Shown here: positions 32,223 to 38,125 of the stretch, in pieces
How the letters are laid out: each line of letters begins with the position of its first letter
Position numbering within the stretch: the first letter of the stretch is position 1
NCBI RefSeq assembly: GCF_900156505.1
Contig: NZ_FTPR01000001.1
Span: forward strand, 124,001-188,000
DNA from: Yoonia rosea
GTDB taxonomy: Bacteria > Pseudomonadota > Alphaproteobacteria > Rhodobacterales > Rhodobacteraceae
DNA length: 64,000 nucleotides
Reading direction: 5' to 3'
Program-made: the position numbers and the translations under genes
The notes under the pieces: generated by a model
What the model saw: the letters and a program-made list of their open reading frames with translations, nothing else
Database searches by the model: none
Told to the model about the DNA's origin: nothing

Positions 32223-33931
32223 TGCCTGTTGAGATTTCCCGCGCGCATTACGCCGCAATGTACGGACCGACCACGGGCGACAAGCTGCGCCTTGCCGATA
32301 CCGATCTGGTGATCGAGGTTGAGCGCGACCTGACCACCTATGGCGAAGAGGTGAAATTCGGCGGCGGCAAGGTGATCCGCGATGGTATGGGCCAATCACA
32401 GGTCACGCGTGCCGGTGGTGCAGTTGATACCGTCATAACCAACGCGCTGATCGTCGATCACTCCGGCATCTACAAGGCTGATGTTGCGCTCAAAGACGGT
32501 TTGATCCACGCCATCGGCAAGGCAGGCAACCCTGATACCCAGCCCGGTGTCGACATTATCGTCGGCCCTGGGACCGAGGTCATTGCTGGTGAGGGCCGTA
32601 TCCTGACCGCAGGCGGCATGGACAGCCATATCCATTTTATCTGCCCGCAGCAGATGGAAGACTCGCTGCATTCCGGTGTCACCACCTGCTTTGGTGGCGG
32701 TACGGGGCCAGCGCATGGCACATTGGCGACGACCTGCACCCCCGGTCCGTGGCATATCGGGCGGATGCTGCAAAGCTTTGATGGTATTGCGATGAATATC
32801 GGCCTGTCGGGCAAAGGCAACGCCAGCCAACCCGAGGCTTTGGTCGAAATGGTCAAAGGTGGCGCCTGTGCGCTGAAACTCCACGAGGATTGGGGCACAA
32901 CACCTGCCGCAATTGATTGCTGTCTGTCGGTGGCCGATGACATGGATGTGCAGGTCATGATCCATACCGATACGCTGAATGAATCCGGCTTTGTGGAGCA
33001 CACCGTCGGCGCGATCAAAGGCCGCACGATCCATGCCTTCCATACTGAGGGCGCAGGTGGCGGCCATGCCCCTGATATCATCAAGATTTGTGGTGATGCC
33101 AATGTGCTGCCGTCCTCAACCAACCCGACACGGCCTTTCACCGTCAATACGCTGGAAGAGCATCTCGACATGCTGATGGTCTGTCACCATCTGGACAAAT
33201 CCATCCCCGAGGATATCGCCTTTGCCGAAAGCCGTATCCGTCGCGAAACGATTGCCGCCGAGGATATTTTGCATGATATCGGTGCGTTCTCGATTATCGC
33301 CTCGGACAGTCAGGCCATGGGCCGCGTGGGCGAGGTGGTTATCCGTACTTGGCAGACTGCCGATAAGATGAAGAAACAACGCGGGCGTCTGGCTGATGAA
33401 ACAGGTGAAAACGACAACATGCGTGTGCGCCGCTATATTGCGAAATACACGATCAACCCTGCAATCGCCCAAGGTGTAAGCCATGCCATTGGTGATATCA
33501 GTGTCGGTAAACGCGCCGATCTGGTGCTGTGGTCGCCTGCGTTTTTCGGGGTCAAGCCCGAGATGGTGTTGATGGGCGGTATGATCGTTGTGGCGCAGAT
33601 GGGTGATCCCAATGCCTCGATTCCCACACCGCAGCCTGTTTATACGCGGGCCATGTTCGGCGCTTACGGCAGCGCGCTGCGCAACACATCCGTAACCTTT
33701 ATTTCGGGTGCGGCCGAGACGGCGGGATTGCGTGACAATCTTGGTTTGGCCAAGCAAACCGTGGCGATCAAGAACACGCGCAACATCAGTAAGGCGGATA
33801 TGGTGCTGAACACGGCCTTGCCGAAAATCGAAGTGCATCCTGAAACCTATGAGGTGCGCGCCGATGGTGAATTGCTGACCTGTGAACCTGCGCAAAGCCT
33901 TCCGATGGCGCAACGCTATTTCATGTTCTGA
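32222..33931 (+). CDS. ureC: Urease subunit alpha (catalytic)
   Basis: A 569-residue nickel amidohydrolase that splits urea to ammonia and carbamate. The active site is complete: His136 and His138 in [11 protein letters not shown], the carbamylated Lys219 in [15 protein letters not shown], His248 in MIHTDTLN, His274 in [15 protein letters not shown], His322 in [12 protein letters not shown] (mobile flap) and Asp362 in [10 protein letters not shown]. Length is standard for bacterial UreC. The operon around it carries ureD, E, F and G for nickel insertion, but no nickel or urea transporter is present in the window. Confidence 0.98.
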
Positions 33932-36782: not shown

Positions 36783-37328
36783 TTGCCAGTTCTGGAACCA
36801 AGGACCATCCGCTCAGGCAGGAAAGGCCCTGCCGTTGTTACGGCCGCAGTCTTTCTTTTGATGGCGGCGTTTCCGGCAATGCTCTTGTGTTTCACGGTGT
36901 ACTTCACGGGTTGGCGTCCAGGTGATCCGGTCGTCAGGGCCTTGATGGGGGCCACGTTCATGCTTGTGATGTTGTCGTGGCTGGCTTGGCGTTTCTTGCC
37001 GATGCGCGTGGCGGAAGTGACGTTTGACGTGACTGGGATCACGTTTTGCGAGATGCAAAATGGCAAGACCCGCTTCGTGCGTCAGACAATTGCATGGTCC
37101 GAAATTTACGCGCTGTTGGGGACCGGAAGAAAGAGTTTCTTTGGTGTCGAATTGCACACCAATGGCCCGCCGCCAGGGCGTCGGATCGTGACGTCGGTTT
37201 CGGGCGGCGGTTTCGTTGTCCGCATCGCAGTCCCCTATGCGAAGACAGCAGGGTACCATGTTAAACCGGTCTTCACGGACGGATTTTTGTCAGAAGAAAT
37301 CTGGAAGCTGTTCAAGACCGATAGCTGA
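36783..37328 (+). CDS. Hypothetical membrane protein with two transmembrane segments
   Basis: A 181-residue protein, not recognised. It has hydrophobic segments at residues about 16-40 (AVVTAAVFLLMAAFPAMLLCFTVYF) and 53-71 (ALMGATFMLVMLSWLAWRFL). A soluble C-terminal domain of beta-type follows (VTFDVTGITFCEMQNGKTRFVRQTIAWSEIYAL), in the style of small PH-like membrane-anchored domains. The start is a TTG at 36783 with GAGGG about ten bases ahead; no ATG gives a sensible N-terminus. It lies 5 bases after the Lrp gene, so it may be co-transcribed. Confidence 0.65.
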   Translation: MPVLEPRTIRSGRKGPAVVTAAVFLLMAAFPAMLLCFTVYFTGWRPGDPVVRALMGATFMLVMLSWLAWRFLPMRVAEVTFDVTGITFCEMQNGKTRFVRQTIAWSEIYALLGTGRKSFFGVELHTNGPPPGRRIVTSVSGGGFVVRIAVPYAKTAGYHVKPVFTDGFLSEEIWKLFKTDS

Positions 37329-37343: not shown

Positions 37344-37384
37344 TAAAAAAACGGCCATGCCCGGGAGGAGGTGGACATGACCGT
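37344..37384 (-). ncRNA. CcsR-like hairpin, last unit, doubling as terminator
   Basis: A 9-pair stem with one G-U (arms 37376-37384 and 37351-37359) presents CCTCCTCCC (37363-37371). A run of T on the minus strand (37344-37351) follows directly, so the hairpin also ends the transcript. Confidence 0.82.
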
Positions 37385-37396
37385 CTTTATTTATCA

Positions 37397-37436
37397 GCGC
37401 CTCCTTGCGTCTCGGGAGGAGAAGAAGCAAGGCGCG
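37397..37436 (-). ncRNA. CcsR-like hairpin, sixth unit, with a shortened loop motif
   Basis: A CCTTGC/GCAAGG stem (37403-37408 and 37427-37432) with outer GCGC pairing. The loop has CTCCTCCC (37414-37421), preceded by TTCTT instead of the C of the other units, so one repeat of the motif is eroded. Confidence 0.7.
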
Positions 37437-37440
37437 TCCT

Positions 37441-37480
37441 CGCTGGCGTTGCTCGGGAGGAGGTGAGCGCGGCCTGCGGT
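37441..37480 (-). ncRNA. CcsR-like hairpin, fifth unit
   Basis: A short GCTC/GAGC inner stem (37451-37454 and 37465-37468) closes a loop with CCTCCTCCC (37455-37463). The outer pairing is partial, so this is the weakest stem of the array. Confidence 0.65.
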
Positions 37481-37484
37481 ATCA

Positions 37485-37519
37485 TCGGTTCCACCCGGGA
37501 GGAGGATGGGCGGTTCCGA
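37485..37519 (-). ncRNA. CcsR-like hairpin, fourth unit
   Basis: Stem of TCGG/CCGA, an AA-AA internal loop, two GC pairs, a G-U pair and CCC/GGG closing a loop with CCTCCTCCC (37497-37505). The G-U is a mismatch on the plus strand. Confidence 0.72.
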
Positions 37520-37536
37520 AACTGGTGTTATAAAGC

Positions 37537-37566
37537 GGCGGCACCCGGGAGGAGGTGGATGCCGCC
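37537..37566 (-). ncRNA. CcsR-like hairpin, third unit
   Basis: A perfect 7-base GGCGGCA/TGCCGCC stem (37537-37543 and 37560-37566), extended by two more pairs past a bulge. CCTCCTCCC is at 37547-37555. Confidence 0.78.
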
Positions 37567-37577
37567 ACCTTATTGCT

Positions 37578-37619
37578 GACCCAAAGCCTCGGGAGGAGGT
37601 GAAGCGATGGGCCTTGGTC
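37578..37619 (-). ncRNA. CcsR-like hairpin, second unit on the transcript
   Basis: The stem GACCAAGGC pairs with GCTTTGGGTC with one bulged G and one G-U pair on the minus strand. The motif CCTCCTCCC is at 37591-37599 within a wider loop. Confidence 0.72.
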
Positions 37620-37653
37620 CAGATCTGCCTAAAGGGAGGAGGTAGCAGATCTG
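37620..37653 (-). ncRNA. CcsR-like hairpin, unit nearest the DUF1127 gene
   Basis: A perfect 9-base stem, CAGATCTGC with GCAGATCTG (arms 37645-37653 and 37620-37628). The loop carries CCTCCTCCC at 37634-37642. It begins 10 bases past the DUF1127 stop. Confidence 0.78.
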
Positions 37654-37663
37654 AATTCGTGAA

Positions 37664-37891
37664 TTACTTTCCGTATGCCGCTTCATAGGCGACGGACTTG
37701 ATCATGCTGCGCGACATGCCCAAATCGTTAAGGTCACGTGACGACAAGCTCTGCAGTTCGCTCAGCGTCTGGTTATAAACGCGGCGCTTTGCAGCTTTTA
37801 CGGCGAGCTCTGCGCGGAATGACGCAATGCGCTCACCCAGAGAAGTGCCAGCGAAGAATGTTTCGGTACGAACGGTCATTTTACTACTCAT
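37664..37891 (-). CDS. DUF1127 domain-containing small protein heading the sRNA array
   Basis: A 75-residue protein. The DUF1127 core is at the C-terminal half: LSELQSLSSRDLNDLGMSRSMIKSVAYEAAYGK, a short helical, Arg-containing motif that in R. sphaeroides (CcaF1) has RNA-binding activity and matures or protects the CcsR RNAs. The N-terminal part has a long basic helix (SFRAELAVKAAKRRVYNQTL). The ATG at 37891 was taken; ATG 37879 has about as good a context. It is divergent from mrp and 10 bases ahead of the first hairpin, so protein and RNAs share a transcript. I could not define its promoter; heat-shock sigma control is expected from the known relative. Confidence 0.88.
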   Translation of the reverse strand: MSSKMTVRTETFFAGTSLGERIASFRAELAVKAAKRRVYNQTLSELQSLSSRDLNDLGMSRSMIKSVAYEAAYGK

Positions 37892-38125
37892 TGTCTATTG
37901 CGTTGCGGTCTGTGCCGCTGTGTTGTGACCAAGATGTATGATGATGCTGCAGTTGCACAATAGATCATTCTGCAATGCAGCTATGCGGTAAATGCATAAG
38001 CATTCCTGACCTATTGTTAAGAAACTGTCACAAAATTGGGCATCGGCGCCCGAGGCCTTGCGCTCCTACATAAACCTGCCAAAGGTTGGCGCGAATTTGA
38101 ACACAAACGAAACAAGGGTCCTGCA

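Follow-up and report, generated by a model that had tools for sequence, protein, structure and literature searches.

A seven-hairpin CcsR/cuckoo/ar14-type small RNA array behind a DUF1127 gene of Yoonia rosea and its predicted LsrB/VtlR-type promoter box

The minus strand of the analysed stretch of the Yoonia rosea genome (64,000 nucleotides, here called the window) carries seven hairpins at 37347-37655, each with CUCCUCCC, and the first stem starts eight bases past the stop codon of a DUF1127 gene (37664-37879). The array is a CcsR/cuckoo/ar14-type small RNA (sRNA) operon, a conserved member of an already known kind of sRNA. From a conserved promoter box upstream of the gene, we predict that the array is under LsrB/VtlR-type control. 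A ccaF1-CcsR-type operon with LsrB/VtlR-like promoter control is, with good confidence, the best explanation of the locus as a whole.

The array and its strand

The motif CTCCTCCC occurs eight times in the window (1.34 expected; eight copies reached in none of 100 shuffles), and seven of these copies are on the minus strand, spread over 37363-37641 at spacings of 41-51 bases. A search of the whole 3.51-Mb genome for two CTCCTCCC motifs 25-55 bases apart gave no second place. The minus strand of the array folds at -136.8 kcal/mol (z -7.18) and none of 100 shuffles is as stable; the plus strand folds no better than its shuffles (z -0.15; 46 of 100 equal it). These motif counts and fold statistics, with the PF06568 match of the upstream gene, confirm the seven minus-strand hairpins behind a DUF1127 gene described in the sequence-only reading, an earlier annotation made without database searches.

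That reading had the motif exposed in all loops, which holds for six of them in the free fold; in unit 6 the motif is partly paired. With all seven motifs constrained open, the array energy is still -136.8 kcal/mol (over a slightly longer stretch), and unit-wise folding under the same constraint gives a hairpin around every loop. Units 4, 5 and 6 have a modest advantage when folded singly, with 2, 5 and 1 of 20 flank shuffles as stable. The full 9-mer CCUCCUCCC stands in six loops, those of hairpin 1 (37618-37655), hairpin 2 (37578-37613), hairpin 3 (37530-37573, with a 17-bp stem), hairpin 4 (37485-37519), hairpin 5 (37441-37478) and hairpin 7 (37347-37388), all on the minus strand and assigned by folding, with covariation in hairpins 3, 4, 5 and 7. 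Hairpin 6 (37396-37439, minus strand) carries UCUCCUCCC and is given as folded with the motif constrained open, since the unconstrained fold pairs differently.

Hairpin 7 has a 16-bp stem that runs into seven U, the shape of a Rho-independent terminator and the role that its U tract had suggested in the sequence-only reading. Six of its 16 pairs are changed on both sides, and 98.9% of cells are paired. A simple terminator scan did not list this hairpin, probably because the scan allows loops of 3-8 bases and the loop here has 10. A convergent ORF of 181 aa with no Pfam match lies at 36783-37328 on the plus strand, and hairpin 7 may also terminate that gene.

The strand was also examined across related arrays. 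We dropped 22 loci before the energy, mismatch, loop-conservation and promoter counts: duplicates of the window array and of L039, loci of low complexity or outside the family (L037, L040, L043), motif-less DUF1127 loci (L051, L057), and short or second loci (L009, L010, L012, L018, L065, L066). Some strains are counted twice in the remaining rows, probably L047/L071, L048/L069 and L049/L077. The 475 units of 64 arrays have a median energy of -19.3 kcal/mol on this strand and -17.8 on its complement, with -9.8 in flank shuffles, and 355 units beat all 20 of their flank shuffles by energy. By the number of enclosing pairs 100 of the 475 units do so, and this measure does not tell units and flank shuffles apart. 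Single mismatches inside stems, counted with G-U pairing switched off so that the test is strand-neutral, are G-U in 169 cases and A-C in 30 among 416 distinct units; 81 G-U and 17 A-C come from the genus, 82 and 13 from other members of the family. The six to zero of the window stems bears out the earlier remark that plus-strand C-A mismatches are G-U pairs on the minus strand.

In 22 genus arrays, chosen for having seven hairpins, 24 of 47 pairs have two-sided changes against 10.0 expected (0 of 500 shuffles). Pairing holds in 95.7% of cells, and in 28-44% when partners are slid by 1-3 columns, a comparison that favours the structure because it was derived from the same alignment. This count covers hairpins 2-5 and 7; its 47 pairs are the 49 of RNAalifold minus two long-range ones, and hairpins 1 and 6 were not recovered by RNAalifold from the full alignment, which loses register at these two units. 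Fold energy, G-U excess, covariation and Rfam matches all place the array RNA on the minus strand.

Family identity and hairpin number

Rfam ar14 matches the array at 54.1 and 50.1 bits (gathering score 58.8; E 2.5e-9 and 2e-8), CcsR1 matches hairpins 2-3 end to end at 30.7 bits (gathering score 65.3; E 7.9e-6), and ar7 matches at E 2.5e-4, below its gathering score. All four matches with E < 0.001 are on the minus strand, and none in the array reaches a gathering score. The C-rich loops also weakly match unrelated families, for example Scr3202 (E 0.026). A search with the CcsR/cuckoo family models, proposed in the sequence-only reading, does give matches to ar14 and CcsR1, though below gathering score. 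Elsewhere in the window, the urease region contains an Rfam RF02514 5_ureB_sRNA match at 32375-32663 on the minus strand (93.8 bits, gathering score 40).

Several known systems come close to this one. The array has in common with the CcsR1-4/ccaF1 operon of Rhodobacter sphaeroides (Rfam RF02791 CcsR1) a 71-aa DUF1127 gene, anti-Shine-Dalgarno (aSD) hairpins and a Rho-independent terminator. It differs in its even spacing of 41-51 bases instead of pairs with long linkers, in a score far under the gathering score of the CcsR1 model, and in its predicted promoter, the published one in R. sphaeroides being RpoHI/RpoHII. With ar14/NfeR1 of rhizobia (Rfam RF02344) it shares the CCUCCUCCC loops and the LsrB box TGCA-N6-GCAT in the promoter, but ar14 has three hairpins and the array here has seven, downstream of a gene. 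The cuckoo RNA family (Reinkensmeier and Giegerich 2015, as cited by PMC10253847 and PMC10746234) also has tandem hairpins with an identical loop motif, divergent stems and a DUF1127 link (the CIN1 locus), and differs in hairpin number.

The DUF1127 gene (37664-37879, minus strand; PF06568, E 5.7e-10) encodes a CcaF1-like protein. Alignment with relatives indicates that it probably starts at 37879 (71 aa) and not at 37891 (75 aa), and the published length of CcaF1 is also 71 aa (PMC10253847). The closest proteins in named relatives are from Loktanella sp. PT4BL (96%), Loktanella sp. 5RATIMAR09 (90%) and a Yoonia MAG (65%). Nine of 11 DUF1127 loci of named genomes have an array and two do not.

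With one genome sampled per genus, 161 of 198 family genomes show a motif-pair pattern; among those of good quality it is 146 of 174. Within the genus the pattern is present in 54 of 56 members, and in 51 of 51 whose genomes are of good quality. A compact three-motif pattern, which looser arrays escape, matched in four of 289 genomes of the class: this one, one genus member, G285 and G317. G285 is doubtful since the reversed control matches too, and G317 is doubtful as its match is a repeat with 18/21-base steps, probably coding.

Hairpin counts range from 2 to 26 over 64 arrays, and seven motifs are found in 24 of 32 measured genus loci (L047-L049 and L058-L086, with three strains probably present twice). 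The largest array (L014/L207, genome G165) has 26 motifs, every one exact. Its spacings follow a near-repeat with a period of three hairpins, a pattern expected from tandem duplication. Spacing is even in this genus; in many others it alternates between short (about 40) and long (about 65-80), so that hairpin pairs are set apart by linkers. In paired arrays (L050, L031, L017 and others) the long linkers form an additional small hairpin that lacks the aSD motif. In genome G493, an array of eleven hairpins (C7:57121-57488, L208) includes some identical stretches, which points to recent internal duplication, and motif pairs lie on two further contigs.

We take the R. sphaeroides transcript RSs0680a to be the later-named CcsR1. 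It has two aSD stem-loops (PMC3927594), and the Rfam CcsR1 model has two loops. At two aSD hairpins per CcsR RNA, the four RNAs of R. sphaeroides should make about eight hairpins. The sequence-only reading had called seven units an expansion, which compared hairpins with RNAs. We reject this: R. sphaeroides should itself have about eight, counting units in related genomes gave seven as the genus norm, and arrays of up to 26 exist elsewhere.

The promoter box and a candidate regulator

The sequence-only reading did not include a promoter feature. Upstream of the DUF1127 gene and on the minus strand, ATGCATTTACCGCATAGCTGCATTG is followed by ATTGTGCA and then by TACATC. The dyad TGCA-N6-GCAT, a T-N11-A LysR-type box, lies at 37983-37996. 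It is overlapped by CGCATAGCTGCATTG (37973-37987), which differs at one position from TGCATNGCNGCATTG; read on the opposite strand, TGCATNGCNGCATTG is the reported VtlR motif CAATGCAGCCATGCA (PMC12595884). Eleven bases past the box is the conserved -35-like element ATTGTGCA (37954-37961), and the putative -10-like element TACATC (37933-37938) is placed by its position and by conservation judged by eye. Counted from this predicted -10, the dyad would span about -70 to -57. TGCA-N6-GCAT is the LsrB box that was found by gel shift in PnfeR1, the promoter of the aSD sRNA NfeR1, at -72 to -57 (PMC10746234). A sigma-70 scan found no promoter here.

The box is conserved with the arrays. Within 650 bases upstream, the 15-mer occurs with at most one mismatch at 58 of 64 arrays and with at most two at 61; the reversed control box has no match at two mismatches or fewer upstream of the same arrays, and three with three mismatches. 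Among the 61 arrays there are 56 unique promoters, of which 46 contain TGCA-N6-GCAT and 53 have TTGTGC 12-13 bases past GCATTG. The exact 15-mer is present in 91 of 120 family genomes (control, a single match). Thirty exact-box loci divide into 15 with a downstream DUF1127 gene or array and 15 with neither, the latter including L152, which is near a contig start and was missed by the position filter.

A 25-base block from this promoter has 15 sites in the Y. rosea genome at three mismatches or fewer (control, none). One is the array operon (1 mismatch), two are at further DUF1127 genes (1 and 3 mismatches), so that the box is found at three of the six DUF1127 genes of this genome, and one (2 mismatches) lies between a LysR gene and an Rfam SorX sRNA. 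Ten of the 15 sites, all with 3 mismatches, are tied to no gene or element.

This LysR gene (L131:1606-2554, minus strand) encodes a protein whose best solved-structure match is LsrB of A. tumefaciens (PDB 9HH1, PMC11975290; E 6.6e-70), and the next LysR protein reaches 2.5e-28. Identity to LsrB is 116 of 284 aligned residues (41%), rising to 49 of 66 (74%) at the N-terminal DNA-binding end. Matches at E 1e-70 or better occur in 192 of 198 family genomes. LsrB has been called unique to Rhizobiales in a study with R. sphaeroides among its tree species (PMC11975290). No trxB was seen beside the gene, which has a divergent oxidoreductase-like ORF upstream and a purL-like ORF downstream (names by eye), and we therefore call the protein LsrB-like only.

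SorX lies directly downstream of the LsrB-like LysR gene in 14 of 20 family loci scanned (in Y. rosea at L131:1366-1449, minus strand, by Rfam); the R. sphaeroides literature places it in the 3' UTR of ompR-1. The box adjoining SorX is weak, with at most three mismatches in 18 of 29 loci (reversed control, 0 of 29). The VtlR/LsrB regulon of Rhizobiales, which in Brucella comprises AbcR2 and three DUF1127 genes, has in common with Y. rosea the box, an LsrB-like regulator, several DUF1127 genes and an sRNA adjacent to the regulator. It differs in that no trxB partner was seen here, the adjacent sRNA is SorX and not AbcR, and the control here is predicted. None of the papers among the matches listed joins LsrB/VtlR with CcsR or cuckoo RNAs in Rhodobacterales, in a search that did not extend to the founding cuckoo and CcsR papers.

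Of 68 array rows, in which L014/L207 and L035/L211 each stand for one array, 63 have a DUF1127 gene directly upstream. The exceptions are L016, L020, L059, L209 and L210; the box is retained with 0-1 mismatch in four of them, and L016 shows it with 3 mismatches only. In L020 and L059 the box is 147 and 104 bases ahead of the first loop, with no DUF1127 gene between. L016 (genome G120) is a three-hairpin array with a DUF1127 frame downstream of the first hairpin and none before the array. Loci with promoter and array but without an intervening DUF1127 gene allow the roles of protein and RNA to be separated.

Loop pairing, alternatives and proposed mechanism

The loop core CCUCCUCCC is conserved in 145 genus units and 211 other family units, with the first C at 83-91%, the second at 95-99% and the final C at 99%; the middle six bases are invariant by design, since TCCTCC served to anchor the units. 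Conservation ends at the final C of CCC. Loop positions outside the search core are thus 83-99% conserved and the flanks are variable, in agreement with the earlier observation that stems diverge and loops stay fixed. The 16S rRNA gene of this genome ends in GGATCACCTCCTTTCT, with the exact mature 3' end assumed. The loop contains the 16S aSD core CCUCCU, and given this gene end its last three C extend past the ribosome's own core.

Searching ATG starts over the whole genome, we found no GGGAGGAGG just before ATG outside the array. The shorter GGGAGGAG lies 3-10 bases ahead of ATG at eight places outside the array, and every downstream frame has at least 198 aa. Seven of the eight genes were scanned, and they include a TRAP substrate-binding protein, an acyl-CoA synthetase, an acetoacetyl-CoA reductase and an alkanesulfonate-monooxygenase-like enzyme, functions in transport and metabolism that run in the same direction as the reported NfeR1 targets. 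These eight sites (control 1) compare with 16 matches at 15 sites (control 3) for A/C/T-GGAGGAG, only a mild excess of GGGAGGAG per base, on which we claim no enrichment among ribosome sites. A conserved extended match at phaB is not supported, with GGGAGGAG in 9 of 30 genus orthologues. On these matches we favour selective pairing over bulk masking, and regard the genes as candidate targets only.

The sequence-only reading had suggested that the RNAs may mask ribosome sites in bulk. Such masking of Shine-Dalgarno sites, damping translation globally under stress, would suit loops that hold the aSD core of a 16S gene ending as above, but conservation extends beyond the 16S core as far as the final C of CCC (99%) and no further, which favours a longer and rarer target. 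Since no full 9-nt complement stands just before ATG outside the array, masking at that strength is unlikely, and the eight GGGAGGAG sites are few beside the 16 A/C/T-GGAGGAG matches; we consider this explanation improbable. Somewhat less so, though still unlikely, is that the main partner of the loops is a protein, such as the DUF1127 protein or Hfq, for which they act as a sponge, without mRNA pairing. CcaF1 binds RNA and affects CcsR maturation according to the R. sphaeroides papers, the loop is fixed while the stems vary, and the missing 9-nt complements fit as well. However, mutation of the same loops in NfeR1 abolishes ntrB repression (PMC10746234), and box and array persist at four loci that lack an intervening DUF1127 gene. 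A protein-coding or DNA-level repeat with no sRNA is hardly credible: plus-strand ORFs of 42-81 aa do overlap the array, but the spacings of 43, 44, 50, 42, 41 and 51 keep no single reading frame, and the strand asymmetry of folding and G-U content and the covariation speak against it. We reject a plus-strand RNA or coding repeat on the shuffle-like plus-strand fold and the minus-strand G-U excess.

The promoter has the strongest competing explanation, a possible but less favoured one, in which the same operon is served only by the stress sigma factors RpoHI/RpoHII and the block combines a core promoter with the site of another LysR-type or an unrelated factor. The sections of PMC10253847 on the R. 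sphaeroides CcsR operon describe an RpoHI/RpoHII promoter, not LsrB, and the ATTGTGCA ... TACATC part of the block resembles -35/-10 elements. Yet the block reaches about 35 bases upstream of the -35-like element and takes in both the T-N11-A dyad and, at one mismatch, the VtlR 15-mer, it recurs over 25 bases at the two other DUF1127 genes, and an LsrB-like protein is encoded in the same genome. LsrB-type and RpoHI/RpoHII controls may coexist.

For the operon under LsrB/VtlR-like control, we propose a single transcript that would start upstream of the DUF1127 gene and end at hairpin 7. By analogy with R. sphaeroides, where RNase E processing and a role of CcaF1 in CcsR maturation are described (PMC10253847, PMC8625941, PMC8307010), RNase E may cut the 3' part into stable short RNAs with involvement of the DUF1127 protein. 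As for NfeR1 of S. meliloti, the loops may block the translation of a restricted group of mRNAs for transport and metabolism by pairing with their Shine-Dalgarno regions, and each loop may be redundant, so that hairpin number could set the dose. Promoter conservation suggests that the LsrB/VtlR-like LysR regulator would activate the array and the two other DUF1127 genes, and possibly SorX, alone or alongside stress sigma factors.

The promoter box names a candidate regulator and is the unexpected part of an otherwise ordinary-sized array. A wider proposal, which we rate about as likely as not, is that an LsrB/VtlR-type regulator controls CcsR-type arrays across the family, with DUF1127 genes and SorX, as one ancient alphaproteobacterial redox regulon, in which the arrays change by tandem duplication (2 to 26 hairpins) that tunes dose and can outlive loss of the DUF1127 gene. 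The conserved box would unite the stress RNAs of R. sphaeroides and the AbcR/NfeR1/DUF1127 circuit of rhizobia, which we found described only separately.
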